From: Pseudochryseolinea flava
GTDB taxonomy: Bacteria; Bacteroidota; Bacteroidia; Cytophagales; Cyclobacteriaceae
Direction of reading: 5' to 3'
NCBI RefSeq assembly: GCF_003286915.1
Contig: NZ_QMFY01000009.1
Location: forward strand, 186,001-250,000
DNA length: 64,000 nucleotides
The translations under genes and the position numbers were made by a program. This document shows positions 3,842 to 51,313 of this stretch, piece by piece; position 1 is the first letter of the stretch, and the number at the start of each line of letters is the position of its first letter. Under the pieces are notes generated by a model. That model saw only the letters and a program-made list of their open reading frames with translations, was not told the origin of the DNA and made no database searches.

Positions 3842-5836
3842 ATGAGTTTTTTGTATCCTTCCTTTTTGTGGGCTTTAGGTGTGTTGGCCGTTCCGATTAT
3901 CATTCACCTTTTCAATTTTAGAAGAACCATGCGGGTTTACTTCTCAAATAATAGGTTTTTGAAACAGGTTAAGGAAGCGAGTACGGCCAAACGAAGACTC
4001 AAACATTATCTCATCCTTTTCTCGCGTTTACTCTTTCTCTTTTTCCTGGTTATCACATTCTGTCAACCGGTAATACCGGCGAAAGAGCAATTGGGAAGTG
4101 ATCGAAGTATTGTCATTTATCTCGACAACTCTCAAAGTATGTCGGCGCAACTTGCCGATAAAACAAAAGGATTGGATGCTGCATTGGGTTTTGCAAGGTC
4201 TATCGTTCAGTTGTTTCCACCTGACACGCGCTACAAATTGATCACGAATGATTTTGCGCCTTTCTCGAACGTGTTCAAAACTAAACCTGAAATGATCGAC
4301 CTACTCACACAAATACGATTGTCGTCGGTGAGCAGAACAGCGTCCGAAATTCAAGAGCGTATTCGTCAAGATGGCATACGGGCCAAAGAAATATTTTGGA
4401 TATCTGATTTTCAAAAGTCGACGTTCGGAAAACTTCAAACAAATCGTGATTCATCAAGCAACATCCATCTCGTTCCAATTGCTTTTGCAGCCATTCCCAA
4501 CGTGTTTGTTGATTCGGCATTTCTGGAGAATCCATTTGCGGCCGGTGGTGAAAAGAATGTATTGAAAGTTCGTGTGCGCAATGATGGTATGCGCGATGTC
4601 GATCAGCTCAACCTTAAACTTGTTATTAATAATGTACAAGCAGGAACTTCATCGGTGGATATTCCACAGCAAGGTGTAGCCGAAACGTCCTTCGACATTA
4701 CTACTGGCCTATCGGGAATTAATAAAGCCAAAATTAGTTTCAACGATTTTCCGGTGAGTTTTGATAATGATTTTTACCTCGCCATGAATTTTACAGAAAA
4801 GATTCGTGTCGTAGAAATAAAAAACGCCAACACGCCAACGCCGATTGAAAAAGTGTATGGTAACACCGGCGTCTTCCAATTCACGGGCTTTTCGGCCGAT
4901 AATTTTAATTACAATTTTCTGTCGCAAGCAGATCTCGTGGTGGTTAACGGATTAAACAGCATAGACCCATCGTTGGTGTCGGCGCTTCAAGGATACCTCG
5001 ATAACTTTGGCAACGTGTTGGTGATCCCTGGCAACCGTCCTGATCTAGCAAGTTTTAAAAATTTGCTTCGATTGCCCAATGTAAACGTTATTGAAAATAC
5101 CCAGCCGATGGATTTGGATCGACCTGATTTCGACAACCCATTTTTCGAAAATGTTTTCGAGGAACGTTCGGTATCATTAGCGATGCCAAAAGCGACGAAG
5201 AAACTCGATTGGGGTGCCGATCGATCTGCGTTGTTGCGCTTCAAAAATGATCAACCATTTCTGTCAAGTTTTTCACGAAACGGCAAATTATATGTGATGT
5301 CCGGAGCACTTGAATCTGAGTTAACGGATTTTTATAATCATGCGCTATTTGTTCCGGTCATGTATCGGTTGGCGGCGAGTGGAAAGAAAAATGAAAGCCG
5401 GTTGTACTATTCGTTGCGCGAGAGCTTTATCGGGGTACGAATGGACAGCCTTCAATCAGATGAACCGGTGCGTTTGATTGGCCAGGAGGAATTGGTGCCA
5501 TCGCAGCGAAAGGTGGGGGAGAGTATTTTTATTGATCTTCCGAAGTTTTCTATTTCCAACGGGTTTTACAATCTCGTAAGCCAGGGCGACACCGTTAACT
5601 TGCTGGCTTTTAACCTCGATAAGTCGGAATCGCTTTTGGCGCAATACAGCGGCGATGAAGTGAAGAAAATGATGGGAGATGGCACAAACGTTAGTATTTT
5701 TGAAGCGACTTCCGTCGGGACTTTCAGCAACGAAATAAAGGAGCGATATTTGGGCACTCCATTGTGGAAGTACGCGCTCCTGATGGCAATTGCCTTCCTG
5801 GTCGTGGAAGTCCTTCTCATACGCTTTTTAAAATAG
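3842..5836 (+). CDS. BatA-domain (aerotolerance-type) VWA-like membrane protein
   Basis: A 664-residue inner-membrane protein. Residues 1-80 match the N-terminal BatA/aerotolerance domain: PSFLWALGVLAVPIIIHLF forms one membrane helix and a second lies at about 57-76. A von Willebrand A-like segment follows with the metal-site motif DNSQS at 95-99. A large periplasmic region reaches a last membrane helix at about 643-662. In classic Bat operons BatA lies with MoxR and BatB-E; none are here. This gene instead leads a plus-strand run of a dihydroorotase-like protein, two DUF4199 proteins and two glycosyltransferases, with a 6-base gap to the next start. Confidence 0.85.
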   Translation: MSFLYPSFLWALGVLAVPIIIHLFNFRRTMRVYFSNNRFLKQVKEASTAKRRLKHYLILFSRLLFLFFLVITFCQPVIPAKEQLGSDRSIVIYLDNSQSMSAQLADKTKGLDAALGFARSIVQLFPPDTRYKLITNDFAPFSNVFKTKPEMIDLLTQIRLSSVSRTASEIQERIRQDGIRAKEIFWISDFQKSTFGKLQTNRDSSSNIHLVPIAFAAIPNVFVDSAFLENPFAAGGEKNVLKVRVRNDGMRDVDQLNLKLVINNVQAGTSSVDIPQQGVAETSFDITTGLSGINKAKISFNDFPVSFDNDFYLAMNFTEKIRVVEIKNANTPTPIEKVYGNTGVFQFTGFSADNFNYNFLSQADLVVVNGLNSIDPSLVSALQGYLDNFGNVLVIPGNRPDLASFKNLLRLPNVNVIENTQPMDLDRPDFDNPFFENVFEERSVSLAMPKATKKLDWGADRSALLRFKNDQPFLSSFSRNGKLYVMSGALESELTDFYNHALFVPVMYRLAASGKKNESRLYYSLRESFIGVRMDSLQSDEPVRLIGQEELVPSQRKVGESIFIDLPKFSISNGFYNLVSQGDTVNLLAFNLDKSESLLAQYSGDEVKKMMGDGTNVSIFEATSVGTFSNEIKERYLGTPLWKYALLMAIAFLVVEVLLIRFLK

Positions 5837-10342: not shown

Positions 10343-11602
10343 ATGAAGAATTTCCTGATTCTCTTTGTCGTGACATGTGTATGCTTGCTCAGCACGGCTA
10401 CTTCGGCACAAGTTTCCAGTGAGTTGACGCCAGGTTATTATGTCGTCGTCAGCGCATACGCGAAGAGCAGGGAGAATGTCGCTCAAAACTATGTCGAAGT
10501 ACTTCGCCTGAAGGGTTTGAAAGCGGCTTACGGCTTCAATTCGTCGCGTAATTTATATTTTGTATACCTAAGCTATTTTAAAGATCTGCGCTCATCGCTT
10601 CAGGAAATGAGCAGACTTAGAAAGCAAGAAGAATTTAAAGATGCCTGGGTTCGCGTTGTGCCTGGTGAGGTGTTAGGCCCTCCACCAGTGGTAGAGCAGA
10701 GCCATAATCAACCCACGGAAAAAACCACACCGTCGTCCACACAACCATCATCTACGCAGCCATCATCAACGCAACCTTCCACAACACCGAGCAATGGTAA
10801 CAATGCCGCGGCTAAAGAACAGAATAGCGAAAGCGATACGATCACTGTAACGGATAACCCTCCGATTGTTCAACACGAAAAGATGACCTTGGGCAACACC
10901 GAAGTATTTTTGAGCTTGTACAACGGTCGTAACAACAGAATTGTAGAGGGCGAAGTACAAGTTATCGACACGGAACGTTCTCGCCCCATTACAAAAGTTA
11001 AAGGAAATGAATATCTCATTCTTCCAGATCCGAAAAGTAAATCAGGTCAGTTGACATTGGTATGCGAAGCGTTCGGATATCGTCGCTCTCAAGAGGAGAT
11101 CAATTATCCACTTCCACTAGCAGACACGGTGAAAGAGCATATCGATCTAATGGGTACTACCATTGTCATCAACTTTGATCTCGTGCGATACCATCGTGGT
11201 GATATCGTGGTGCTTTACAATGTATATTTCTTCAACGACGCGGCATTAATGCTGCAAGAATCGAAGTATGAATTAAATAGCTTGCTTGAGTTGATGAAAG
11301 AAAATTCGAAGTATCGCATTCGCCTCCATGGTCACACCAATGGAAATTACCATGGGAAAATCATTACCATGGGCGAGGACAAAAACTTCTTTTCACTTGA
11401 GGGTTCTAAATCCGGAACAGGCTCCGCGAAAGATCTTTCGTTCCACCGCGCTGAAGTAATCAAACAATATCTCGTAGCAAATGGTATTGCTGCCGATAGA
11501 ATTGAAACCAAAGCTTGGGGTGGTAAGAGACCACTATACGACAAGCGAAGCGCTAACGCACGAAAGAATGTTCGTGTAGAAGTGGAAATTATCGAAGATT
11601 AA
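10343..11602 (+). CDS. SPOR-OmpA envelope protein
   Basis: A 419-residue exported protein with a signal peptide (1-23), then a SPOR-like domain at about 28-110 (GYYVVVSAYAKSRENVAQNY, later WVRVV) of the type that binds peptidoglycan stripped of stem peptides. A Pro/Ser/Thr linker follows with three STQPS repeats (about 131-150), then a beta-rich middle, and an OmpA-type peptidoglycan-binding domain at about 300-417 (YRIRLHGHTNG, later AADRIETKAWGGKRPL). Two wall-binding modules in one protein suggest an anchor between outer membrane and cell wall, perhaps active at division sites. Confidence 0.85.
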   Translation: MKNFLILFVVTCVCLLSTATSAQVSSELTPGYYVVVSAYAKSRENVAQNYVEVLRLKGLKAAYGFNSSRNLYFVYLSYFKDLRSSLQEMSRLRKQEEFKDAWVRVVPGEVLGPPPVVEQSHNQPTEKTTPSSTQPSSTQPSSTQPSTTPSNGNNAAAKEQNSESDTITVTDNPPIVQHEKMTLGNTEVFLSLYNGRNNRIVEGEVQVIDTERSRPITKVKGNEYLILPDPKSKSGQLTLVCEAFGYRRSQEEINYPLPLADTVKEHIDLMGTTIVINFDLVRYHRGDIVVLYNVYFFNDAALMLQESKYELNSLLELMKENSKYRIRLHGHTNGNYHGKIITMGEDKNFFSLEGSKSGTGSAKDLSFHRAEVIKQYLVANGIAADRIETKAWGGKRPLYDKRSANARKNVRVEVEIIED

Positions 11603-11625
11603 AAACATAACGTTTGACGTCACGA

Positions 11626-11654
11626 TCAAAAGCCCTGGTGTTCGGGGCTTTTGA
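11626..11654 (+). terminator. Hairpin downstream of the SPOR-OmpA gene
   Basis: TCAAAAGCCC at 11626-11635 pairs perfectly with GGGCTTTTGA at 11645-11654 around a 9-base loop, 24 bases after the stop codon. No strong T-run follows, so termination efficiency is uncertain, but the position and 10-base stem fit a transcript end. Confidence 0.55.
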
Positions 11655-11722
11655 CGTTAGCGCGTATCACCATCTGAAATTCAATCGTATTATCATACAT
11701 TCATTCTAGTCTTAACATTTTC

Positions 11723-12499
11723 ATGAACAGAGTCCTCCGAAGTTTTTTTCTCATTATCAATTACAAAACCATCATCATTACGACGCTGTCGGTAATCTCT
11801 ACCTATTTGTGTTTTCATTTTGGATTCACAGCAAAATTTCCTGACATGCTTGTCGGTGTCGCGATCGTATTTCCTGTGGTGTTCTCCATCGGGTCGGCCT
11901 ACAATAGAAGAGAAACAGCGCTGCAAAGATTTTCGGATTTTAAAGGGCACGCCATCTCAATATATTTTGCCATGCGCGATTGGACTACCGACAAAGACAA
12001 TACGCTTCCGCAACAGGTGAGAACGATCATGGCTGAGCTTATCATCGTTATTCGAAAGATGTTTAAAGAATCTGAAAAAGCTGAGTGGGAAAAGAACGAA
12101 GCTCAGATCTATGAATACTTCTCTCAGCTTTCGAAACTATCCATGGAGATGCGTAAGTATGGCGTGCAAGCTGGTGAGTTCTCAAGGGTGAGCCAATACG
12201 TTAGCAAGATGATCATTGCCTTTGATAACATGAAGATTATTCATGCGTATCGAACGCCAGTAACACTGCGCGCATACAGCAAAGTGTTTATCTATATATT
12301 CCCAATCATATACGGTCCGTATTTCGCTGTAAATTTCAAAGACTTCTCCGCGCATTTGGAGTATGTCATGCCGATCTTATATAGCTTTATTTTGGTTAGC
12401 TTAGATAATATTCAGGATCACCTCGAGCATCCTTTCGATGAGGTAGGTGAAGATGATATTCATATTGATGAGAACGAATTGATTAGACACATGCGGTAG
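11723..12499 (+). CDS. Bestrophin-like membrane protein
   Basis: A 258-residue protein with two N-terminal helices (about 12-30 and 38-55), a cytoplasmic helical part, a further pair of helices (about 188-205 and 215-232), and the tail LDNIQDHLEHPFDEVGEDDI. That tail resembles the bestrophin signature in which a Pro-Phe pair is followed by an acidic cluster. Bestrophins are pentameric anion channels in eukaryotes and ion channels in bacteria. Length and topology are consistent, but overall similarity is low, so the family call is moderate. It is followed after 11 bases by a TPR membrane protein. Confidence 0.55.
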   Translation: MNRVLRSFFLIINYKTIIITTLSVISTYLCFHFGFTAKFPDMLVGVAIVFPVVFSIGSAYNRRETALQRFSDFKGHAISIYFAMRDWTTDKDNTLPQQVRTIMAELIIVIRKMFKESEKAEWEKNEAQIYEYFSQLSKLSMEMRKYGVQAGEFSRVSQYVSKMIIAFDNMKIIHAYRTPVTLRAYSKVFIYIFPIIYGPYFAVNFKDFSAHLEYVMPILYSFILVSLDNIQDHLEHPFDEVGEDDIHIDENELIRHMR

Positions 12500-39593: not shown

Positions 39594-40010
39594 TTACGAC
39601 ACTGGATTCAGCACCACGCTAAACACGGTGATCGTATTCATATCTCTGCCGTAATAAAGTTTCTGCAATGCATCCATAATATTTCCCGCGCGGAAGTATG
39701 ATGTATTTAACTCTGCATCGCCGCCTTTCACGACCCACTGAATGGTGTAAGAGTTTTCTTTCTCCTTATAGTTCTGCACGTAACGAAGCATCTTGTTTAG
39801 CGATTCCACTTTGTCACTTCCGGTTTCGCTGTGAAATAGAAATGCTTGGTTGTGACGTGGATTGATCGTGATCAAATCAAGCTTTACCTTGCCATCAATC
39901 GTGGTGTACTCGAATACTAAATCTGCAGTTCGTAAGCCGAGATAATCCTTAATCTCCTGCTGAATGCGGGCAGCTTCTACATGCATATCGCTGGTGGTTT
40001 CGAGTATCAT
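39594..40010 (-). CDS. Conserved hypothetical protein
   Basis: A 138-residue protein with no leader or membrane helix. The middle holds alternating beta-strand character (DGKVKLDLITINPRHNQAFL). No family is recognised. Start set at the ATG at 40010 (MILETTSDMHVEAA); a longer reading would open with TTG right beside the divergent epimerase start. Possible promoter box TACCTTTA (40071-40078, minus strand). Confidence 0.7.
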   Translation of the reverse strand: MILETTSDMHVEAARIQQEIKDYLGLRTADLVFEYTTIDGKVKLDLITINPRHNQAFLFHSETGSDKVESLNKMLRYVQNYKEKENSYTIQWVVKGGDAELNTSYFRAGNIMDALQKLYYGRDMNTITVFSVVLNPVS

Positions 40011-40084
40011 CTTTCTAATATTCAGTTGACTAAACTTCCGATTTTGGCGAAAAGTTTCTTCTTTGGATTGTAAAGGTAACAAAT

Positions 40085-40501
40085 ATGGAAAAACTTGAAC
40101 ATATCGGTATTGCAGTCAAAAATCTGGACCAGGCAAATGCGCTTTTTGCTAAACTTTTGGGAAGAAATCATTACAAAATAGAGGAGGTTGTCTCTGAAGG
40201 GGTTAGGACCTCATTTTTTGATCTTTCGGGTGTAAAAATCGAACTTTTGGAGGCAACGCGTGCGGATTCTCCGATTGCGAAATTTATCGATAAACGTGGG
40301 GAGGGAATTCATCACCTTGCCTTTGAGGTGAACGACATCGCTCAGGAAATTCAAAATTATCGAGATAAGGGTTTTGAATTGATCAACCCAGAGCCGAAAA
40401 TGGGGGCAGACAATAAAAAGATATGTTTTTTACACCCTAAATCGACACAGGGTGTATTGGTTGAACTGTGCGAAGAAATTAAGGACGCTGCATCTCACTA
40501 G
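40085..40501 (+). CDS. mce: Methylmalonyl-CoA epimerase
   Basis: A 138-residue VOC-fold metal enzyme that interconverts the R and S forms of methylmalonyl-CoA between propionyl-CoA carboxylase and the B12 mutase. Start LEHIGIAVKNLDQANALFAK, metal ligands His6, GIHHLAFEV and the C-terminal Glu in GVLVELCEE match the family. Length is standard. A small lipoprotein gene on the opposite strand overlaps its last 23 bases. Confidence 0.93.
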   Translation: MEKLEHIGIAVKNLDQANALFAKLLGRNHYKIEEVVSEGVRTSFFDLSGVKIELLEATRADSPIAKFIDKRGEGIHHLAFEVNDIAQEIQNYRDKGFELINPEPKMGADNKKICFLHPKSTQGVLVELCEEIKDAASH

Positions 40502-40640
40502 CGCGCTTCCCGCCGTACTGGATGTCGTTGTAGTACTTCTGCTTCTTCTTACCCGCTTTTGTCTTGTAATATGGCTTTTGACCACAGGCGCTGATCAGGA
40601 AAGCAAAAATCACCATCACGATTACAGCTGTCTTCTTCAT
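40479..40640 (-). CDS. 53-residue lipoprotein
   Basis: A very small gene: ATG at 40640, 53 codons and a TAA. The peptide begins MKKTAVIVMVIFAF and has the lipobox LISAC (Cys at residue 19), so it should be lipid-modified and exported. The mature part is only about 35 residues, Lys- and Tyr-rich (KPYYKTKAGKKKQKYY), then acidic/polar. Its 3' end overlaps the mce stop by 23 bases on the other strand. The reading frame, leader and lipobox together make a real gene likely. Function unknown. Confidence 0.7.
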   Translation of the reverse strand: MKKTAVIVMVIFAFLISACGQKPYYKTKAGKKKQKYYNDIQYGGKRASEMQRP

Positions 40641-40711
40641 CTTCTTGGTTGTTTGTCGTTCAAAATTATAGCGAACTTATCAAGTAAACCACTCAGTTTC
40701 ATACAGAATCT

Positions 40712-40719
40712 TACTTTTG
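40712..40719 (+). promoter_or_regulatory. thiL -7 promoter box with leader
   Basis: TACTTTTG is an exact TAnnTTTG match and continues CAGG, like rpsT and lepA. The leader to the thiL ATG contains a 6-base-stem hairpin (GCCCCT 40731-40736, AGGGGC 40748-40753) and a 13-codon open frame from ATG 40724 to TGA 40763, ending 2 bases before the thiL start. Confidence 0.55.
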
Positions 40720-40767
40720 CAGGATGAAACGCCCCTTCACACGCTGGAGGGGCCACAAAAACTGAAT

Positions 40768-41802
40768 ATGAGTGAAAATAGAGCAGAGATCAGTCAACTT
40801 GGTGAGTTTGGATTGATCGATCGCATTAGCGGCAACGTTGCCCTTACACAAGCATCAACACTAAAAGGCATTGGCGACGACGCCGCGGTAATCGATATCG
40901 GCCATGAAGCCCTCCTCGTGTCTACCGATATGCTCGTGGAAGGAATTCATTTTGACCTCGCATACATGCCACTCCAACACCTCGGTTATAAGTCTGTCGC
41001 CGTGAACGTGTCTGATATCGCAGCCATGAATGGCAAAGCGGAACAAATCACGGTGAGCATCGCACTCAGTAGTCGGTTTTCACTCCAAGCAGTTGATGCA
41101 TTGTATGAAGGTATTCGCGCAGCCTGTGCAAATTATAACATCGACCTTGTTGGTGGCGACACAACGTCATCAACATCTGGATTGATCATATCCATTACCG
41201 TACTTGGACGCGCGCAGAAAAATAGGATCACCTATCGTAGTGGCGCTAAAGCCAATGATATTATCTGCGTAACGGGCGACCTAGGCGCCGCTTTTATCGG
41301 CTTACAAATTCTGGAACGTGAGAAAGAAGTTTTTCTAACGGATCCAAACATGCAACCTGATCTGGAAAACTTTGAATACCTCGTAGGGCGTCAACTACGC
41401 CCTGAGGCTAGAACAAATATCGTCTATGATCTGGCAGAACTTGGTGTTCAGCCTACATCCATGATTGATGTATCGGATGGACTTGCATCGGAGTTGCTAC
41501 ACCTGGCAAAAAATTCGAAAGTGGGCGTGCGTTTATTTGAAGACAAAGTGCCCGTTGATCAATTGACATACAACACGGCAGTAGAATTCAATATCGATCC
41601 AATTACCTGCGCGTTAAATGGCGGTGAAGACTATGAACTGCTCTTTACGATCTCTCAAGAAGATCACGAAAAATTAAAGAACCACCCAGACATTCATTTG
41701 ATTGGCTACATGCACGATAAAATAGATCAAAACATCATGATCACCAAGCAAGGAAATGTTGTGCCGATCACAGCGCAGGGATGGAATCATTTTCGGTCGT
41801 AA
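40768..41802 (+). CDS. thiL: Thiamine-monophosphate kinase
   Basis: A 344-residue PurM-fold enzyme that phosphorylates thiamine monophosphate to the cofactor thiamine diphosphate. GIGDDAAVIDIG at about 36-47 binds Mg-ATP, followed by LLVSTDMLVEGIHFDL, VNVSDIAAMNGKA, and LVGGDTTSSTSGLIIS. The C-terminal MIDVSDGLASELLHLAKNS and NGGEDYELLFT complete the signature. Start taken at the ATG at 40768 (MSENRAEISQLGEFG); an earlier open start lies upstream of the promoter box. Confidence 0.95.
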   Translation: MSENRAEISQLGEFGLIDRISGNVALTQASTLKGIGDDAAVIDIGHEALLVSTDMLVEGIHFDLAYMPLQHLGYKSVAVNVSDIAAMNGKAEQITVSIALSSRFSLQAVDALYEGIRAACANYNIDLVGGDTTSSTSGLIISITVLGRAQKNRITYRSGAKANDIICVTGDLGAAFIGLQILEREKEVFLTDPNMQPDLENFEYLVGRQLRPEARTNIVYDLAELGVQPTSMIDVSDGLASELLHLAKNSKVGVRLFEDKVPVDQLTYNTAVEFNIDPITCALNGGEDYELLFTISQEDHEKLKNHPDIHLIGYMHDKIDQNIMITKQGNVVPITAQGWNHFRS

Positions 41803-42157
41803 ATTCTTAATGTTTCCTGTTATCTGTTGCCGGTTGCTAGTTTTTTTTCATTATTAAACTGGCAGCCGGAAATCGATTCTCCAGTCATCCTGGCTTGATC
41901 CTCTAGAGAAGCTATAGATGTTCGCTCATTTTCTCCAGATGTTCTCCCTACGCGTCCAGTACTAGAGAGCTGCGAGCTTCGAGCTACGAGTTGCGAGAAA
42001 TGCGTTAGACGTCAGGAAAGTTGCGAGCTACGAGAAAAATGGGGTAGACGTCAGAATCCTAGATATCGCATAACAATACCTGAAAAACGTATTCAACACC
42101 AACACATCAACACATTTCTTGAACACTCGAACACCTGAACACTTGAACACCCTGAGG
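41803..42157. repeat. Non-coding gap rich in simple repeats
   Basis: A 355-base convergent gap without a gene. It holds (a) a 14-base hairpin, CCGGTTGCTAGTTT at 41830-41843 with AAACTGGCAGCCGG at 41856-41869 (two G-U pairs); (b) runs of GCGAG-type words at about 41970-42030, with the phrase TAGACGTCAG repeated near 42006 and 42049; (c) four copies of an 8-base GAACAC unit at about 42118-42150. These look like the same class of intergenic simple repeats found in other gaps. Confidence 0.65.
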
Positions 42158-42535
42158 TTAATCTTCTGGATACGGAATAAATACAAAGTTGGTAAACTGT
42201 TCGTCGATTACGAATAGACAGCAAAACTCATCAGGATCTTTGTATGCTGCTTCAAAGTCTTCTTTTTTATCGGCAGTCACCAATCCGCGTTGGAGAAATT
42301 CATCGAGAAACGAGGCAAAGTAATTCCATGCAGTGCCGTTCATCTTTTGATCTAGCAACAGTTGTCCAACCGGCTGTGCTTCTTTGCAGATCGCGAAGAT
42401 TGGAAAATCAAACCCTGCCGTTCTAATCTGGTAACTGGCTTCTTTTAACGTGTCGGACACACGGACAAAATCTTGCGATATCGTTCCTAAATACTTGCCA
42501 CTTAACTCCGGGTCGTTCTGCATATTTATAGACAT
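42158..42535 (-). CDS. Conserved hypothetical protein
   Basis: A 125-residue soluble protein with no leader. It contains LKEASYQIRTAGFDFPIFAI, WNYFASFLDEFLQRGLV, and ends FVFIPYPED. I recognise no family, though such short proteins are conserved in Bacteroidota. Two candidate starts, at 42535 and 42523 (MQNDPEL), cannot be separated by eye. The 184-base gap to the next gene (42536-42719) holds nothing I recognise. Confidence 0.65.
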   Translation of the reverse strand: MSINMQNDPELSGKYLGTISQDFVRVSDTLKEASYQIRTAGFDFPIFAICKEAQPVGQLLLDQKMNGTAWNYFASFLDEFLQRGLVTADKKEDFEAAYKDPDEFCCLFVIDEQFTNFVFIPYPED

Positions 42536-42719
42536 TCAAAAAGTCGATGCAAGTTAAGATTTTTTTAGTTTGACTTTGACCGCTAAGAATGAAGTTATCT
42601 CAATCTTCAAATTCGTACTCTGGCTAGGAACGCAGGCAAAGATTTTACTCAGCTAACGAAGGTTGAGTGAAGACGAACAAGAGTCGTTCGGTAAAAGTAT
42701 CTCAAACTCGAACTATTCT

Positions 42720-43298
42720 TTAAAGCATCTGATCGACATGGGCTTTTAGCAGCGGGAGGAATTCTTTGAATTCTTTTTTAAACGCCTGATAGTGCTCGCG
42801 TAAATCGTTCACCGCTTCATCCATTCGTGAATTGTATTTCGTTCGTCGCGCCATACCGGTGAGCGCGCGTTGTATACCTTCAAGCCCGGCGTAATTCACG
42901 AGCCAATTACCGCGGATCATGTAGGGCAACATATGTTTTACATTTTCGGGCAGAATGCTGTCAAAAGATGAAATGGTGTTGTACGACTCCTCAGCGAACA
43001 ACGTGAGTGGTTGAGGATGAAATTTTTCCCAGTTGGCAGCGAGGTAATGGTCATAGAAAACGTCCACGATAACGGATGAATAGTGTCGATAAACGGGACG
43101 TAAACGCTGTTTACTTTCACTTACAACGGGATGGGTATCGGTATACAGATCGATCGCACGATGGATCTCGATGCCGCGCGCGATGTCACGCTCGTAGTGA
43201 TCATACACATGGCGGCCTTTTACAAAATCACCAATGAAATTGCCAACCAGAATTTTAGAATTATTTCCCGATAAGTATAGATGTGCAAGAAAATTCAT
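42720..43298 (-). CDS. acpH: Acyl carrier protein phosphodiesterase
   Basis: A 192-residue protein of the AcpH/DUF479 family, which removes the phosphopantetheine arm from acyl carrier protein. Opening MNFLAHLYLSGNNSKILVGN, then GNFIGDFVKG and YERDIARGIEIHRAIDLYTD carry the HD-like conserved His and Asp residues. C-terminal NYAGLEGIQRALTGMARRT matches too. Length as in E. coli (193). Confidence 0.92.
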   Translation of the reverse strand: MNFLAHLYLSGNNSKILVGNFIGDFVKGRHVYDHYERDIARGIEIHRAIDLYTDTHPVVSESKQRLRPVYRHYSSVIVDVFYDHYLAANWEKFHPQPLTLFAEESYNTISSFDSILPENVKHMLPYMIRGNWLVNYAGLEGIQRALTGMARRTKYNSRMDEAVNDLREHYQAFKKEFKEFLPLLKAHVDQML

Positions 43299-43386
43299 TG
43301 CGAATAAAGTTATTGGTAATTTGTCATTTACTTGTTAGGTTAACAGCTCAATGTTGTGTTAGAAATCATTATTTTAAATAATTGTC

Positions 43387-43788
43387 ATGTCTGCACTTGC
43401 TCAAATGAAACTTCTGATCAACCTCGCGCAAATCGACGGGAAGGTGGCAGATCGTGAACGTAATTACATCATCAATATTGGCCGGGCAAATAATATCTAT
43501 CCAGATGAAGTAATACCGATGTTTGACCAACGTCACAGCCTTATCGTTCCTGATAACTTGAACGTCGACCAGAAATTCTCCTACATCTTTAGTTTGGTGC
43601 AGTTGATGAAAATTGACGAAAGAATGTATAAGGAAGAGATCATGTTCTGCTCAAAAATTGCAGCCACGCTCGGCTACGATCAGCAAGTGATGTTTGACCT
43701 GATGTTGCACGTAAAAAGCGCGGCCATGGCTCCCGATGAAATGGAGGCCCTCAAAGTACTCACTTTAAGATATCTTCGAGATAAATAA
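43387..43788 (+). CDS. TerB-like protein
   Basis: A 133-residue all-helical protein resembling the TerB/DjlA-N fold: [20 protein letters not shown] at the start, a further [20 protein letters not shown] helix and a metal-binding-type acidic residue in each. TerB family members bind metal and take part in stress responses; true tellurite resistance is not implied. It precedes the exported amidohydrolase by 5 bases, so it may belong to the same operon even though it is cytosolic. Confidence 0.75.
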
Positions 43789-43793
43789 TATTT

Positions 43794-45071
43794 ATGCGGT
43801 CATTACTCGTCATCGTATTTTTTGTCGTGGGTCTACAAGCCGACATCTTCGCGCAGAAAACTTTTATTCATTGTGGAAATCTGATCGATGGAAAAAACAC
43901 GGAAGTCCAAGTTCAGGTGACGTTGATTGTTGAGGGGAATAAGATTGTTGCCATTGAGAAAGGTTTTTCAAAACCAGGCAAGGCTGATAAACTGATCGAT
44001 CTCAGTAAGAAGACCGTACTACCCGGCCTGATCGATTTGCATGTTCACCTTGAAAGTGAAACGAACAAAGATGCACTGTTACAACGATTCACGATGAGTG
44101 ATGCGGATATCGCTCTTAAATCTACGGTTTACGCAAAGCGTACGATTATGGCGGGCTTTACAACCGTGCGAGACCTCGGCGGGAGTGGTGTGAACATTGC
44201 ACTGCGTAATGCCATTAATCAAAACCTTGTTGTCGGACCACGCGTACTCACAGCGGGAAAATCCATCGCCACTACAGGTGGTCATGCCGATCCAACCAAC
44301 GGTTATCGGCGCGAGAGTATGGGAGATCCCGGACCAAAGGAAGGGGTTATTAACGGACCTGACGATGCGCGCAAAGCGGTTCGCCAGCGTTACAAAGATG
44401 GCGCAGACCTTATCAAAATTACCGCCACTGGCGGCGTGTTGAGCATTGCAAAAGACGGTTCAGGCCCACAGTTCACAGACGAAGAATTGGCGGCGATAAT
44501 CGAAACAGCAAAGGACTATGGGATGCATACTGCAGCGCATGCGCATGGCGCCGAAGGAATGAAACGCGCCGTATTAGCAGGAATCACCACGATTGAACAC
44601 GGTACAAAAATGTCGGATGAAGTGATGGACCTCATGGTTCAAAAAGGTACGTACTATGTACCAACGATATCCGCGGGAAAGTTTGTAGCGGCAAAGGCGA
44701 AAGAGCCGGGCTATTATCATCCGCTTGTAGTTCCAAAGGCGCTCGAAATTGGCCCACAAATTCAGGCTACGTTCGCGAAAGCATATAAGCGTGGGGTGAA
44801 GATTGCATTCGGAACTGACGCTGGCGTATTTCCGCATGGTGAGAACGCGAAAGAGTTCGGCTATATGGTAGAGGCTGGCATGTCGCCCATGGATGCAATC
44901 CAGTCGGCAACTATTGTTGCGGCAAAAGTGCTTCAAATTGACGATAAGATAGGAACTTTGGAAGTTGGTAAGTTAGCGGATCTTATTGCTACCGAGGAAA
45001 ATCCAATCAACAACATTAAGACACTGGAAGCTGTTATGTTTGTGATGAAAGATGGGGCAGTGATCAAATAG
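43794..45071 (+). CDS. Exported metal-dependent amidohydrolase
   Basis: A 425-residue amidohydrolase with a signal peptide (1-20). Metal motifs: HVH at 83-85 ([10 protein letters not shown]), Lys in [11 protein letters not shown] that may be the carboxylated ligand, [22 protein letters not shown], and the Asp in [13 protein letters not shown]. This resembles the imidazolonepropionase-like and Xaa-Pro dipeptidase subgroup, so a peptidase or lactam/cyclic-amide hydrolase role is plausible. It lies 2 bases before the thioredoxin-like gene and forms an operon with it and the copper monooxygenase. Confidence 0.9.
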
Positions 45072-45073
45072 CA

Positions 45074-45610
45074 ATGACGACAAAACTTGTGCTCACTTTT
45101 TTTATCATCGGAGTAGGCTTGAAAACTCACGGGCAGCTTTCAATGCCCTCGGAGTTATTCATTGCCGATAAAATTAACGTTGTCGTTTTTCTTTCGGTAG
45201 ACTGTCCAATCAGTCAAAAGTACATTGGTACATTAAATGAATTGTTGGGCGAGCGATCGGGTCAGGTTGTGATAACGGGGATCATTCCGGGGCGCGTTCA
45301 AAAAAGTGATGTAAAGAAATTCAAACAGGAATATAAGATTGCATTTAAAATTGTCAGAGACGAGAATTATCATTTTACCGACTGGTTTAAAGCGGGATTC
45401 ACGCCGGAGGTGTTTGTCTTTAATACGCATCAGAAATTTATCTATCAAGGCGCTGTCGACAATTGGTTTTACGATCTTGGTAGCTATCGGCAACAAATTA
45501 CAGAGAACTACCTTCGGGATGTTATAACAGCAGAGGTGGAGGGACAAAATCCCTCTTTTAAGAAAACGGAAACAGTAGGATGCATTATACAAAAACCAGT
45601 CAAGCGATAA
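45074..45610 (+). CDS. Thioredoxin-fold (redoxin-like) exported protein
   Basis: A 178-residue protein with a signal peptide (1-20). It has a peroxiredoxin/TlpA-like fold: VVVFLSVDCPISQKYIGTLN carries one redox Cys (Cys44, in the sequence DCPISQK, so no CxxC). A second Cys is at 170 in TVGCIIQKP. In Planctomycetota and Acidobacteriota such domains are followed directly by a cytochrome c and copper monooxygenase in one polypeptide; here the next gene supplies those. The last 31 bases overlap that gene in a different frame. Split-partner role is inferred. Confidence 0.85.
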   Translation: MTTKLVLTFFIIGVGLKTHGQLSMPSELFIADKINVVVFLSVDCPISQKYIGTLNELLGERSGQVVITGIIPGRVQKSDVKKFKQEYKIAFKIVRDENYHFTDWFKAGFTPEVFVFNTHQKFIYQGAVDNWFYDLGSYRQQITENYLRDVITAEVEGQNPSFKKTETVGCIIQKPVKR

Positions 45611-46887
45611 AACTAGCCCTCATCTATTTGGCAGTTGTGATTTCAATTACAGCGCAAGCGCAAAAAAAAGTTACCTATAGTGAACATATAGAACCTCTGC
45701 TTTTAAAAAATTGTGCACCCTGCCATCGCCCGGGGACTGCCGCACCCTTTTCGTTACTCACGTTCGACGACGCGGTAAAGCACGGATCGATGATAAAATA
45801 TGTTACCGGAAAACGGTACATGCCACCATGGAAAGCAGATCCTGCGTATCGGTCATTTGCGAATGAGAAAATGTTGACAGATGAAGAGATTGTGCTTATT
45901 GCTAACTGGGTCGACGGTGGAATGTTTAAAGGGAAGTCGACGAAGAAATCAAAAGTATCATTATCAAATGCGAACACGCGTACAGCTGATGCTTTACTCG
46001 CCGCCCAGCCGATAAGCATCAAAGGGGACAATAAGGAGAATTTTACACTTGCGATCATTCCCTTTGAGTTTAATCAAGAAATGAATGTTGAAAGTGTTGA
46101 GTACCTATCCTCCACGATGAAGATCATTCATCATGCAAATTTTGGCATTTATGCGGTACCCGATCCCGCCATTGATATTCATGCCCTAAAGGATCCCATC
46201 GATGCCAACTTCGTAGGAGCCAAGGCAAATCAGCTCGCGCTACTTTCTCAGCATATCGTGTATTATAATGGATGGGTACCAGGGTCGACCCCGATCACCT
46301 TTCCAAAAGGCCTTGGATTTAAAATGCCACGGCGTGGGGTAATAATTTTGACGAACCACTACGCGCCGTCTCCGGTGGACGTCACGGAAATTTCCTCACT
46401 AAAGTTTTTCTTCTCAAAAAGTGAAATCACGAGAACCGTTCAAACACTGAGCATTGGATCTGGTGGGGTGGGTGAAATACAACCTTCATTAATGTTAATG
46501 CCCGAGGAAATCAATGATTTTAAAATCCAGATGGAAATAGTGGAGCCCCTGTCGTTGATGTACGTCTGGCCACACATGCATCTTCTAGGGAAATCATACA
46601 CAGCGTATTATGCGCTGCAAGGTGACACTATTCCTTTAGTGCGCATCAATAACTGGGATTTTAATTGGCAGGAAGCCTATAAATTTAAAAAGCTTCAAAT
46701 ACTGCCAAAAGGTGCAGTCTTAACGATTGAGGGGCGATACGACAACACAAGCAAAAATCCGCGAAATCCGAACATTCCGCCGAAGATTGTCTTCTCCGAT
46801 GGGCTTATGGGGACCAAAAACGAGATGCTAAGTCTCATCCTCGTTTACCTGCCATATAAAGAGGGTGATGAAAATACAGGCCTTTGA
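45580..46887 (+). CDS. Cytochrome c / PHM-like copper monooxygenase
   Basis: A 435-residue exported protein. Leader 1-28. A cytochrome c module follows, with CAPCH at 45-49 for covalent heme, MPPWKADPAY at 81-90 and WVDGG at 110-114. From about 140 onward comes a copper type-II ascorbate-dependent monooxygenase (peptidylglycine alpha-hydroxylating, PHM-like) part in which the expected copper ligands are visible: His184-His185, His260, His332 and His334 (PHMH), and Met416 in GTKNEMLSL. It is thus likely to hydroxylate a C-H bond in the periplasm with two coppers. Substrate unknown. Confidence 0.88.
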   Translation: MHYTKTSQAIKLALIYLAVVISITAQAQKKVTYSEHIEPLLLKNCAPCHRPGTAAPFSLLTFDDAVKHGSMIKYVTGKRYMPPWKADPAYRSFANEKMLTDEEIVLIANWVDGGMFKGKSTKKSKVSLSNANTRTADALLAAQPISIKGDNKENFTLAIIPFEFNQEMNVESVEYLSSTMKIIHHANFGIYAVPDPAIDIHALKDPIDANFVGAKANQLALLSQHIVYYNGWVPGSTPITFPKGLGFKMPRRGVIILTNHYAPSPVDVTEISSLKFFFSKSEITRTVQTLSIGSGGVGEIQPSLMLMPEEINDFKIQMEIVEPLSLMYVWPHMHLLGKSYTAYYALQGDTIPLVRINNWDFNWQEAYKFKKLQILPKGAVLTIEGRYDNTSKNPRNPNIPPKIVFSDGLMGTKNEMLSLILVYLPYKEGDENTGL

Positions 46888-46923
46888 TCCCGTAATTACC
46901 TCGGCCATGCGCCAAATAATTCC

Positions 46924-46931
46924 TACTTTTG
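46924..46931 (+). promoter_or_regulatory. lepA -7 promoter box
   Basis: TACTTTTG fits TAnnTTTG; the extended CTACTTTTGCAGTCC differs by one base from the rpsT box. It lies 28 bases before the lepA ATG. No TTTG at -33. Confidence 0.55.
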
Positions 46932-46959
46932 CAGTCCAAAATTCGAGGAATAGACGGGT

Positions 46960-48744
46960 ATGGAGAACATCCGAAACTTTTGCATCATTGCACACATCGA
47001 CCACGGTAAAAGTACGCTGGCAGACAGACTGTTAGAGTTTACCGGTACGCTAAATGAGCGCCAGATGCAGGCGCAAGTACTGGACAACATGGATTTGGAA
47101 CGTGAAAAGGGCATTACCATCAAAGCCCATGCGATCCAAATGTCGTATAAATTCGAGGGCAAGGAATATATCCTCAACCTAATCGACACGCCAGGTCACG
47201 TCGATTTTTCTTACGAAGTGTCACGCTCGATTGCCGCCTGCGAAGGCGCTTTGTTGATCGTTGACGCCAGCCAGGGAATCGAGGCACAAACCATCTCCAA
47301 CCTCTATTTAGCGCTCGAGCACGACTTGGAAATTATTCCGGTCATGAACAAAATCGATCTTCCGCACGCCATGCCTGAGGAAGTTACCGACGAAATCGTC
47401 GACCTGATCGGTTGTAAGCGCGAGGATGTAATTCGGGCCAGTGCAAAAGAAGGTAAGGGTATTGAAGATATTCTTCGCGCGGTAGTAACACGCGTAAAGC
47501 CTCCTAAGGGCGATCCGAAGGCTCCGCTTCAAGCGATGATCTTCGACTCGGTTTTTAATTCATTCCGCGGAATTGAAGTATACTTTAAAGTTGTTAACGG
47601 AACGATCAAGAAGGGCGACAAAGTAAAATTTGTGAGCACCGGTCAAGAATACGGCGCCGACGAAATTGGTGTGTTGAAACTTGATAAGGCCGCGCGAAAT
47701 GAAATCAGTGCTGGTAACGTTGGATACCTGATATCGGGAATCAAGGTTGCCAAAGAGGTACACGTCGGCGATACCATCACCCACGCTGCTAATCCAGGCG
47801 AGCAATTAAAAGGGTTCGAAGAAGTGAAGCCAATGGTGTTCGCGGGTATCTATCCTGTGGAAACTTCAGAGTTTGAAGAGCTTCGTGATGCCATGGAGAA
47901 ACTTCAATTGAACGATGCTTCATTGGTGTGGGAACTTGAAACATCTGCTGCCCTTGGTTTTGGTTTTCGATGCGGATTTCTCGGGATGCTGCACATGGAA
48001 ATTATCCAGGAACGTCTGGAGCGCGAGTTCAACATGACGGTAATCACCACGGTTCCATCGGTGCAGTTCAAAGCTTTCCTTACCAACGGCGAGGAAATCA
48101 GTGTAAGTGCGCCTTCTGAAATGCCGGATCCAACAATGTTGAAATCCATCGAAGAGCCTTACATCAAAGCGCAAATTATCAGCAAGTCAGAATATATCGG
48201 GCCGATCATCAATTTGTGTATCGATAAACGCGGTATCATCAAGAATCAAAATTATCTCACTACCGACCGTGTTGAGATGACATTCGAAATGCCGCTCTCC
48301 GAAATTGTATTCGACTTCTTCGATAAACTCAAATCCATTTCACGCGGCTATGCATCATTGGATTACCATTTGATTGGCTTCCGTGAATCAGACATGGTGA
48401 AGCTTGATGTAATGCTGAATGGTGATAAAGTTGACGCGTTGAGCGCTATCGTTCACCGCGGAAAATCACAAGAGTGGGGGAGAAAGCTTTGTGAAAAATT
48501 AAAAGAACTTATTCCGCGTCACATGTTCGAAGTTGCGATCCAAGCGGCAATCGGACAGAAAATTGTTGCGAGAGAAACCATCTCTGCTATTCGCAAGAAC
48601 GTAATTGCGAAATGTTATGGTGGTGATATTTCTCGTAAACGTAAACTCTTGGAGAAACAGAAGAAAGGTAAAAAACGGATGCGCCAGATTGGTACTGTCG
48701 AGGTGCCGCAAGAAGCATTTATGGCCGTACTTAAAATAGATTAA
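46960..48744 (+). CDS. lepA: Elongation factor 4 (LepA)
   Basis: A 594-residue translational GTPase that acts on stalled or mistranslocated ribosomes. GTPase motifs: [17 protein letters not shown] (P-loop), DTPGHVDF, and MNKID. The C-terminal part includes a LepA-specific [20 protein letters not shown] end. No Cys-type features. Length is typical. folD follows after 6 bases, so both are likely cotranscribed. Confidence 0.97.
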
Positions 48745-48750
48745 TACGCA

Positions 48751-49641
48751 ATGGTCGAGACAAAATCCAACTACACCCTCATTGACGGTAAGAAAGTATC
48801 TGCAGACATTAAAGCAGAGATCACGCAACGTGTTGCTGAGCGCAAAGCACAAAATAAGAAGATCCCTCACTTGGCGATCATTCTTGTTGGCGACGACGGG
48901 GCTAGTCAAACTTACGTTGATAATAAAGTGAAGTCATGTAAGTCGGTAGGTTTCCATTACACCATGATGCGTTTCGCGGATACCATCAGCGAAGAAAAAT
49001 TGATGAAGCATATCGACCACGTGAACAACGACGACGATGTCGATGGTTTTATCGTTCAGCTTCCGTTGCCACCGCATATTTCAGTGGAAAAAATCACTGA
49101 GAAAATTCGTTCCGACAAAGATGTCGACGGATTTACCAATCAAAATTTCGGTAGTATCATTTCTAAAAATCCATTGCTCATGCCCGCGACGCCGTTTGGA
49201 GTAATGGAATTGTTGAGACGCTATAATGTACAAACAGAAGGTAAGCATGCAGTGGTTATCGGCGCGAGTCGCATTGCCGGCGCACCCTTAAGTATGATGC
49301 TCACCGAGCAAGGACATGCCACCGTTACAATTTGCCATAAGTACACCAAAGATTTGGCGAGCTACACACGCGCTGCCGACATTCTTCTTACAGCAGTAGG
49401 AAGACCTGGATTAGTAACAGGCGACATGGTGAAAGAAGGTGCTGTGGTAATCGACATTGGAACTACTCGTGTTGAAGGTCCGGAATATCCGAAGGGCTGG
49501 GCCATCAAAGGCGATGTGGATTTCGATGCCGTCGCTCCCAAAGCGTCGCTAATCACGCCCGTACCAGGAGGCGTAGGCCCAATGACCATCGCGTCATTAT
49601 TGTTGAACACGCTAAAAGCAACAGAATTCCGGTACCCATAG
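48751..49641 (+). CDS. folD: Bifunctional FolD (methylene-THF dehydrogenase / cyclohydrolase)
   Basis: A 296-residue enzyme of one-carbon metabolism that makes 10-formyl-THF from 5,10-methylene-THF. Motifs: SQTYVDNKVKSCKSVGFHYT with the catalytic Lys and Tyr, DVDGFIVQLPLPPHISVEKI, KDVDGFTNQNFG, and the NADP-binding VVIGASRIAGAPLSMML; ends TPVPGGVGPMTIASLL. Length matches. Confidence 0.97.
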   Translation: MVETKSNYTLIDGKKVSADIKAEITQRVAERKAQNKKIPHLAIILVGDDGASQTYVDNKVKSCKSVGFHYTMMRFADTISEEKLMKHIDHVNNDDDVDGFIVQLPLPPHISVEKITEKIRSDKDVDGFTNQNFGSIISKNPLLMPATPFGVMELLRRYNVQTEGKHAVVIGASRIAGAPLSMMLTEQGHATVTICHKYTKDLASYTRAADILLTAVGRPGLVTGDMVKEGAVVIDIGTTRVEGPEYPKGWAIKGDVDFDAVAPKASLITPVPGGVGPMTIASLLLNTLKATEFRYP

Positions 49642-49653
49642 CGTGAACCCTCT

Positions 49654-49690
49654 GTGAAACTTTGTGGTTCTTTGTGCATCTCTGTGAAAT
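49654..49690. repeat. Intergenic GTGAAACTTTG repeat, copy 2
   Basis: CTCTGTGAAACTTTGTGG and then CTTTGTGCATCTCTGTGAAA lie in the folD-queE gap, related to the phrase at 1346-1363. CTCTGTGAAA itself occurs twice, at the start and end. A dispersed simple repeat of the same class as elsewhere. Confidence 0.5.
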
Positions 49691-49693
49691 AAT

Positions 49694-50323
49694 TTGCGCT
49701 TAAAGGAAAACGATATTACCATCACCGACGCACTCCCCGTAATGGAAGATTTCTACACCATTCAAGGTGAAGGATTCTATCAAGGACACGCGGCATATTT
49801 TGTAAGACTTGGTGGATGCGACGTCGGCTGTGTCTGGTGTGATGTGAAAGAATCGTGGGATGCATCGCTTCATCCGATGCTTTCGATAGCGGAAATTGTA
49901 TCGCGTGTTAAAACTGGCAAAGGAAAGATTGTGGTAATCACCGGTGGCGAACCTGTGATGTACAACCTCGAAAAACTTACCCATGCGTTGAAGGATTCCG
50001 GCCTCAGAACACATATCGAAACTTCAGGTGTGTATCCATTAACAGGCACGTGGGATTGGGTTTGTTTTTCACCAAAGAAATTTAAGAAGCCTGATACTTC
50101 TATTTTTGAGAAAGCTGATGAACTTAAGGTGATCATCAACCACAAAAGCGATATTGCCTGGGCGGAAGAATTCACGTCTAAATTGAAACCTTCTTGCCAG
50201 CTTTTCCTTCAACCGGAATGGTCGAAAGAAAAAGAAATGCTCCCCTTGATCATTGAGTATGTTAAGGATAATCCGAAATGGCAGGTATCGTTACAGGTTC
50301 ATAAGTATATGAACATTCCATAG
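49694..50323 (+). CDS. queE: 7-carboxy-7-deazaguanine synthase (radical SAM)
   Basis: A 209-residue QueE of the pathway to queuosine and other 7-deazapurines. The radical-SAM cluster motif is CDVGCVWC in GGCDVGCVWCDV (Cys-x3-Cys-x2-Cys), preceded by FYTIQGEGFYQG and followed by ITGGEPVMYNLEKL. QueE uses SAM to contract 6-carboxytetrahydropterin. I use a TTG start at 49694 because the family has a strand before MEDFYTIQ; the alternative ATG is at 49742. The partner queD lies at 60785-61204. Confidence 0.93.
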   Translation: MRLKENDITITDALPVMEDFYTIQGEGFYQGHAAYFVRLGGCDVGCVWCDVKESWDASLHPMLSIAEIVSRVKTGKGKIVVITGGEPVMYNLEKLTHALKDSGLRTHIETSGVYPLTGTWDWVCFSPKKFKKPDTSIFEKADELKVIINHKSDIAWAEEFTSKLKPSCQLFLQPEWSKEKEMLPLIIEYVKDNPKWQVSLQVHKYMNIP

Positions 50324-50344
50324 TGCAACGTGGTTAATGCGAAC

Positions 50345-51313
50345 ATGGAGATTTCAAAATTTATTGAAACGATGAACAGGTGGGGACGAGATAAAGTCCC
50401 TTTTCTGTTTGCTATAGATTTTGAGATGGAGCAACCGTGGATAGTGAAGGAAAGCGACCTCGACTCAACACAAATTCAATTTGCTATTGACGGCGTGACG
50501 AATGCCGTACCAAATAAGAAACAAGCGCCCATTGCACTGGCGAAGAAGGTGATACCGCTTGAGATTTACCGCGCTAAGTTTGATAGAGTTATGGCGGGGC
50601 TTGCATACGGAGATTCATTCCTGACGAACCTCACCATTAAAACGGAGATCGAAACGACATCGACATTGCAGGAAATTTTTGCCGCGAGCAAAGCAACTTA
50701 TAAATTGTTGTGGCGAGATCGATTTCTTGTTTTCTCTCCAGAAACGTTTGTAAAGATTGGCAACGGTAAAATTCTGTCTTATCCGATGAAGGGTACTATC
50801 GATGCGGATCTTACCGGAGCCGAGCAGAAGATTCTGACAGATCAGAAGGAACTCGCCGAGCACGTTACCATTGTTGATCTTATTCGAAACGATATCAGTC
50901 AAGTAGCAGACAACGTACGCGTAACGCGTTTTCGTTACATCGACAAGATTCGCACGAGCCATAAAAATCTACTACAAGTAAGTTCGGAGATTACAGGCGA
51001 CCTGCCCGCAGATTATTCTTCGCGGTTGGGAGACATTATCGTGAAACTTCTCCCTGCAGGATCGGTTAGCGGTGCGCCTAAGAAGAAAACCGTGCAAATA
51101 ATTCGTGAAGCAGAAAGGGAAAAAAGAGGTTTCTACACGGGAGTTTTTGGTTATTTTAATGGTTCAGTGCTGGACAGTGGCGTGATGATCCGCTTCATCG
51201 AAAAAGATGGCGATAAATATTTTTATCGCAGCGGAGGCGGAATCACCACACAAAGCGTTGTGTCATCAGAATACCAAGAAGCTATCGACAAAGTTTATGT
51301 CCCTGTTGATTGA
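50345..51313 (+). CDS. pabB: Aminodeoxychorismate synthase component I
   Basis: A 322-residue chorismate-binding enzyme that makes 4-amino-4-deoxychorismate for folate. The C-terminal signatures LLPAGSVSGAPKKKTVQIIR, GFYTGVFGYFNG and YRSGGGITTQSVVSSEYQEA are diagnostic. SYPMKGTIDAD corresponds to the PIKGT region of the family. Shorter than E. coli PabB (453) because the N-terminal part is reduced. Start at the ATG at 50345; a GTG lies five codons upstream. It overlaps pabC by 17 bases. Confidence 0.93.
   Translation: MEISKFIETMNRWGRDKVPFLFAIDFEMEQPWIVKESDLDSTQIQFAIDGVTNAVPNKKQAPIALAKKVIPLEIYRAKFDRVMAGLAYGDSFLTNLTIKTEIETTSTLQEIFAASKATYKLLWRDRFLVFSPETFVKIGNGKILSYPMKGTIDADLTGAEQKILTDQKELAEHVTIVDLIRNDISQVADNVRVTRFRYIDKIRTSHKNLLQVSSEITGDLPADYSSRLGDIIVKLLPAGSVSGAPKKKTVQIIREAEREKRGFYTGVFGYFNGSVLDSGVMIRFIEKDGDKYFYRSGGGITTQSVVSSEYQEAIDKVYVPVD

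Follow-up and report, generated by a model that had tools for sequence, protein, structure and literature searches.

Peptidylglycine α-hydroxylating monooxygenase (PHM) and dopamine β-hydroxylase (DBH) have been studied as ascorbate-driven animal enzymes. Animals use the PHM fold to finish peptide hormones; PHM has several disulfides and clamps the carboxylate of its substrate with Arg240, Asn316 and Tyr318, and DBH carries a DOMON domain and acts, with ascorbate, on amines. The supply of a copper oxygenase by a heme domain is known from cellobiose dehydrogenase, which feeds LPMO; this pair serves here as a working analogy only, being made of separate proteins with a different heme type and fold and being no relative of the protein described below. 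None of the titles listed in our literature search, which lay outside most subscription journals, concerned a bacterial cytochrome c–PHM protein, and bacterial PHM is not treated in the passages found in PMC3494510, PMC6919629 and PMC5461114.

The window analysed here, a 64,000-nucleotide stretch of the genome of Pseudochryseolinea flava (Bacteroidota), contains three consecutive open reading frames (ORF1–ORF3; Table 1), of which the first two are separated by 2 bases and the last two overlap by 31 bases. A hydropathy test, rather than a signal-peptide predictor, showed a hydrophobic, signal-like N-terminus for each of the three. This layout, described in the initial annotation, was reproduced in our ORF calls, and the two phrases to which that annotation drew attention were both found in the translations: VGCIIQ in the C-terminal end of ORF2 (VGCIIQKPVKR) and VTYSEHIEPLL in ORF3, which also contains the heme motif CAPCH. 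The genome holds one copy of the cytochrome–PHM monooxygenase gene.

Table 1. Coordinates of features at the window locus, with the number of aligned sequences that hold each residue
Feature	Position in window	Strand	Conservation
Amidohydrolase, judged a bystander outside the system	43794..45071	+	
Redoxin, thioredoxin fold (predicted), 178 aa, signal-like N-terminus	45074..45610	+	
Redoxin Cys44, CPIS motif	45203..45205	+	57/57
Redoxin Cys170, VGCII motif, within the overlap with the monooxygenase gene	45581..45583	+	57/57
Cytochrome c/PHM-fold copper monooxygenase-like protein (predicted), 435 aa, signal-like N-terminus	45580..46887	+	
Heme c motif CAPCH, residues 45–49	45712..45726	+	Cys, Cys and His, 134/135 each
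Met81, possible distal heme ligand	45820..45822	+	135/135
His184-His185, HH pair of PHM (CuH site)	46129..46134	+	135/135, aligned register
His260, His of PHM HY (CuH site)	46357..46359	+	135/135, aligned register
His332-x-His334, HTH of PHM (CuM site)	46573..46581	+	135/135, aligned register
Met416, EM Met of PHM (CuM site)	46825..46827	+	134/135, one gap; aligned register

Fold and ligands of the cytochrome–PHM protein

ORF3 is predicted to link a cytochrome c to a domain pair of the PHM/DBH fold. The best 31 PDB matches that Foldseek returned for its AlphaFold model (pLDDT 92.4, 84 input sequences) are all PHM or DBH, with E values of 4e-13 to 9e-9; the TM-scores normalized to the query (TMq) are moderate (0.37–0.52), as one would expect when a further domain is attached to a two-domain protein, yet they are no proof of the assignment. 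On the structure check envisaged in the initial annotation, the model agrees with that annotation as far as the fold is concerned. A broader family profile (A3, 54 rows) matched DBH (E 4.3e-10) and PHM (E 7.4e-8) in the PDB, and in its alignment with PHM the motif pairs HH/HH, HY/HY, HmH/HTH and EM/EM are all in register. This broader profile was needed because a narrower one (A1, built without L054, whose ORF start is too early, and L079, whose ORF is cut by a contig end) gave only weak cytochrome and chance matches in the PDB. A phmmer search of the PDB with ORF3 alone gave no match, and one homologue (L229) matched DBH at 6e-8 with its HxH pair out of register. Against Pfam, ORF3 scored 19.4 bits with Cu2_monoox_C (PF03712; cut-off 23, passed by six of the seven relatives tested) and 19.4 bits with Cytochrome_CBB3 (PF13442; cut-off 27). 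The assignment therefore rests on family profile and predicted fold.

Conservation was assessed over 135 distinct homologous cores, comprising 85 from contig-scan loci, 49 from later genome fetches and the window copy, after removal of six duplicates from 141 and exclusion of ORFs with a PHM match of at most 80 bits or over fewer than 300 profile positions; the cores are not independent, as some genera, Dyadobacter and Chitinophaga among them, were sampled repeatedly. The five proposed copper-binding histidines are identical throughout, and the rare misses at Met416 and at the three CxxCH positions are each a gap (Table 1); CxxCH and Met81 lie in the same chain as the copper ligands in every core that has residues at these places. 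Conservation at this level is, on these alignments, far beyond chance. The PHM-like ligand pattern and the heme domain that had been read from the window alone are accordingly near-invariant in the family, and in all 13 fused forms described below the copper ligands, CxxCH and Met81, ten positions in total, are kept. ORF3 would thus combine the features of a c-type cytochrome, CxxCH and a conserved downstream Met, with those of the PHM/DBH superfamily, a predicted two-domain fold with a CuH site of three His and a CuM site of two His and one Met.

Compared with PHM (PDB 1opm, 1yjk and 3mll), the protein shares the predicted fold, and its two sets of copper ligands align in register; it differs in carrying a c-heme domain in the same chain, in having no Cys in its core apart from the heme-motif pair (81 of the 135 cores have 3 to 6 Cys), and in its substrate residues. 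The same predicted fold is shared with DBH (PDB 4zel), which is without a c-heme. The positions of PHM Arg240, Asn316 and Tyr318, assigned by spacing from the aligned ligands, are Trp330, Ser418 and Ile420 in the window protein, and among the 135 cores Asn and Tyr occur there 14 and 15 times, respectively, and Arg never. Complete absence of the substrate Arg makes PHM-type peptide hydroxylation, which the initial annotation had suggested, unlikely. The metal ligands are thus retained and the PHM substrate clamp is not; judged by these residues, the protein would not be a peptide-amidating enzyme.

Redoxin partner and amidohydrolase neighbour

ORF2 is, by sequence and model, a thioredoxin-fold redoxin. 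Of the Pfam matches foreseen for the gene pair, AhpC-TSA (PF00578) was borne out for this protein (26.9 bits, cut-off 26) and Cu2_monoox_C, as described above, fell short for ORF3; the score with Pfam Redoxin (PF08534) was 25.0 bits, below the cut-off of 26.6. The AF2 model (pLDDT 92.1) is nearest to the Thermus thermophilus thioredoxin-like structures 2ywo and 2cvb (TM 0.74), with which it shares the fold and an aligned C-terminal GC motif; the window redoxin is paired with a copper-enzyme gene, whereas the Thermus proteins are linked here to none. Cys44 and Cys170 are invariant among 57 redoxins, but the second Cys of the CxxC motif is present in only 40 of these; in a wider set of 70 distinct separate redoxins, it is found in 42 and the GC motif in all. 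Among the 13 fused forms, 12 have both Cys44 and Cys170, and the second CxxC Cys is missing from every one of those 12. Cys44/Cys170 is therefore the probable working pair. The context of Cys44 (S-V-D-C-P-I-S, with E/D-C-P in 56 of 57 rows and Q in one) does not match PxxxTxxC, the peroxidatic motif of typical peroxiredoxins. That the redoxin forms disulfides in the copper domain was rejected for the window case, as the core contains only the heme Cys.

In 64 of the 135 loci the redoxin gene immediately precedes the monooxygenase gene on the same strand; it is divergent in three, fused in 13 and elsewhere in the stretch in six. These counts uphold the redoxin as a recurrent partner. No redoxin was found in the stretch for the other 49 monooxygenases, three of these stretches having fewer than 700 bases upstream, and in one fused form (L177) neither redoxin Cys motif was found; both observations suggest that the redoxin may be unrelated to catalysis. 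In all six congeners (G060–G065) a redoxin lies beside lepA, its frame open in G060, G062, G063, G064 and G065 and, in G061 (L242, about 3927–4360), split between two different frames. Only in G063, which appears to be Ohtaekwangia koreensis and whose stretch is identical to L002, does a full monooxygenase gene stand beside it. In G065 (L232, about 11172–11972) such a gene is represented behind the redoxin only by its final 51 codons, apparently a deletion remnant, and no monooxygenase was found at this place in G060, G061, G062 and G064, so that in four of the six the redoxin frame is open there with no full monooxygenase gene adjoining. All congeners except G061 carry a SusC–SusD-type monooxygenase without an adjoining redoxin. 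G061, the sole genome of the six to give no monooxygenase match, also has the only broken redoxin, which hints at a link between the two proteins after all. Taken together, the congeners point to an association of redoxin and monooxygenase that is not inseparable.

ORF1 is, by its matches, an ordinary amidohydrolase: it matches Amidohydro_1 at 2e-60, scores 401 bits with the NCBIfam Xaa-Pro dipeptidase model (cut-off 500) and closely resembles amidohydrolases of known structure, among them 9kov and 2qs8. Only at the window locus, among the 135, does an amidohydrolase adjoin the redoxin and monooxygenase (11 stretches, with less than 2 kb upstream, being too short for this count); at two other loci one lies 2.7–4.5 kb away, and the gene occurs in five of the seven genomes of the genus. 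In the window it ends a seven-gene block (39594–45071: the gene at 39594, VOC, thiL, the gene at 42158, ACP phosphodiesterase, TerB and the amidohydrolase) that is inverted relative to all six congeners. In G060, G063, G064 and G065 the block runs opposite to that of the window, with the amidohydrolase at its far end on the other strand; G061 and G062 share this orientation, and no amidohydrolase was found there. An inversion in the P. flava genome has thus placed the amidohydrolase only 2 bases from the redoxin gene, and, contrary to the system membership first ascribed to it, the amidohydrolase is probably a bystander whose adjacency is accidental.

Family distribution and gene neighbourhoods

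Judged by sequence matches, relatives of the cytochrome–PHM monooxygenase are widespread. The gene was found in 15 of 59 genomes of relatives at E 1e-30. A family sample of 60 genomes gave matches in 34 at E 0.001, only seven being full-length, below 1e-100, and the others short and mostly over the heme domain. Matches were present in 21 of 296 Bacteroidota genomes at 1e-20 (G351, in which the match is broken over two contigs, was left out of the fetch of these 21) and in 15 of 240 Verrucomicrobiota genomes at 1e-12, an Opitutaceae genome (G088) included. A plasmid search gave no match. Tandem duplicates of the monooxygenase gene were seen in Bacteroidota (L008, 6016–8627; L010, 6004–8579; L071, 50–2581).

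The initial annotation had named a single redoxin–cytochrome–PHM polypeptide from Planctomycetota and Acidobacteriota and had read the window pair as its fission product. The 80 loci used from the 164 of the contig scan included none titled as from these phyla; a fused form does exist, at 12 loci in 11 of the 15 Verrucomicrobiota genomes, the other four holding split pairs, and at one Bacteroidota locus (L230, genome G445). The Verrucomicrobiota proteins (L171–L182) have the same three domains, order and ligands as the window pair and differ in being one chain, in some cases with added domains (EF-hands in L174, Ig domains in L177), and in forming a separate clade. Split pairs are the commonest arrangement (64 of 135). 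In a quick tree of 135 rows all 13 fused copies form one clade (support 99, with the caution that the long branches of L177 and L230 meet in it), and in a careful tree of 55 rows, with L177, L179 and L230 left out, the remaining ten do so (100/100); in both trees the fused clade adjoins three split pairs from Verrucomicrobiota. A fission origin was not upheld by these results: as the trees are unrooted and without an outgroup the direction of change is not proven, and a single fusion would account for them at least as simply as a single fission. On two Opitutaceae contigs (L073 and L074) a split pair is nested within sequences from Bacteroidota, reflecting either gene transfer or wrong binning.

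A recurrent gene order in Bacteroidota is SusC–SusD–(redoxin)–monooxygenase–UnbV/VCBS–PAP2 (haloperoxidase-like). SusC and SusD are both upstream of the monooxygenase in 52 of the 135 loci, UnbV/VCBS and PAP2 are nearby in 36, and all four are present in 21 (L009, L025, L027 and L033 among them), many stretches ending too early for these counts to be complete. Neighbours were labelled by BLAST against one reference protein each; domains in examples include SusD-like_2, FG-GAP/UnbV_ASPIC, PAP2 and the TonB plug. Among 37 PAP2 neighbours, K-x6-RP occurs in 37, (P/T/S)SGH in 36, SR..(G/A)G.H in 36 and SR...G.H...D in none; by these motifs the neighbours are haloperoxidase-like at most. Fifteen non-fused homologues have a C-terminal extension of 80–120 residues, with a Pfam T9SS sorting tail in all four extensions tested (three above cut-off) and an NCBIfam T9SS tail in the one tested, which suggests export to the cell surface in lineages carrying it. 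No neighbours of the SusCD, UnbV or PAP2 type were found around the window copy (40000–51000). A search for UnbV_ASPIC gave no match in the P. flava genome, but none in 14 control genomes either.

Proposed mode of action and alternatives

We consider it likely that ORF3 is an exported PHM/DBH-fold copper monooxygenase fed by its own c-type heme, with the redoxin as a thiol helper and the amidohydrolase outside the system. The exported chain would carry the heme domain at its N-terminus, and the heme would most likely accept single electrons from a periplasmic pool and hand them on to the copper bound by three His; the other copper, at the HxH/Met site of two His and one Met, would activate O2 and hydroxylate a substrate, a chemistry suggested by the fold. 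This substrate is probably no peptidyl-glycine, and where SusCD neighbours are present an imported organic molecule may be the best guess. Through Cys44 and Cys170 the redoxin would act as an accessory thiol protein, not as an obligate electron donor, most likely keeping the heme-binding Cys reduced or loading metal.

Direct donation of electrons from the Cys44/Cys170 dithiol to heme or copper at each turnover would fit the 13 fused and 64 closely paired genes and the retention of both Cys in 12 of the 13 fused forms; we nevertheless regard it as unlikely, given the 49 monooxygenases with no redoxin in the stretch, the four congeners that keep an open redoxin frame with no full monooxygenase gene adjoining, and the fused form without either Cys. 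It is also quite improbable that the PHM-like domain binds metals but is no oxygenase, serving instead in electron transfer, copper binding or sensing. The literature search gave no activity for the cytochrome–PHM family, in keeping with such a protein, but the six ligands of both copper sites are invariant over two phyla, which would be unusual without catalytic selection.

The reading of amidohydrolase, redoxin and cytochrome–PHM protein as one peptide-trimming and peptide-hydroxylating operon born by fission draws on the tight spacing in the window and on the existence of fused forms, and the three genes may indeed be co-transcribed in this single genome; with the amidohydrolase adjoining in a single locus, the block reversed or without an amidohydrolase in all six congeners, the fused copies confined to one clade and the PHM substrate Arg absent, that reading is very improbable. 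Scarcely credible is a programmed frameshift at the 31-base overlap that would yield a fused redoxin–monooxygenase, although the genes do overlap in different frames: a separate signal-like N-terminus is present on the monooxygenase in 62 of the 64 split pairs, on which ground this candidate was ruled out, and the spacing varies from an overlap of about 86 bases (counted from longest-ORF starts) to a gap of 38 bases.

For the favoured reading, a copper monooxygenase fed by its own heme, the built-in c-heme of this bacterial PHM branch suggests a different electron supply. Having few Cys, the protein offers a model in which to study electron transfer between the two coppers, and the occurrence of fused, split and redoxin-less forms puts the role of the redoxin within reach of a direct test. 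More tentatively, and with somewhat less than even confidence, the Bacteroidota cytochrome–PHM protein could lie at the centre of a so far undescribed locus for oxidative uptake at the cell surface, in which SusC–SusD, redoxin, UnbV/VCBS and PAP2 would take part in oxidizing an extracellular compound and importing the product. Such a locus would be a PUL-like system for oxidized non-glycan substrates, with heme taking over from ascorbate in driving a PHM-fold enzyme. The family may bring to light a new kind of oxidative system among the Bacteroidota.
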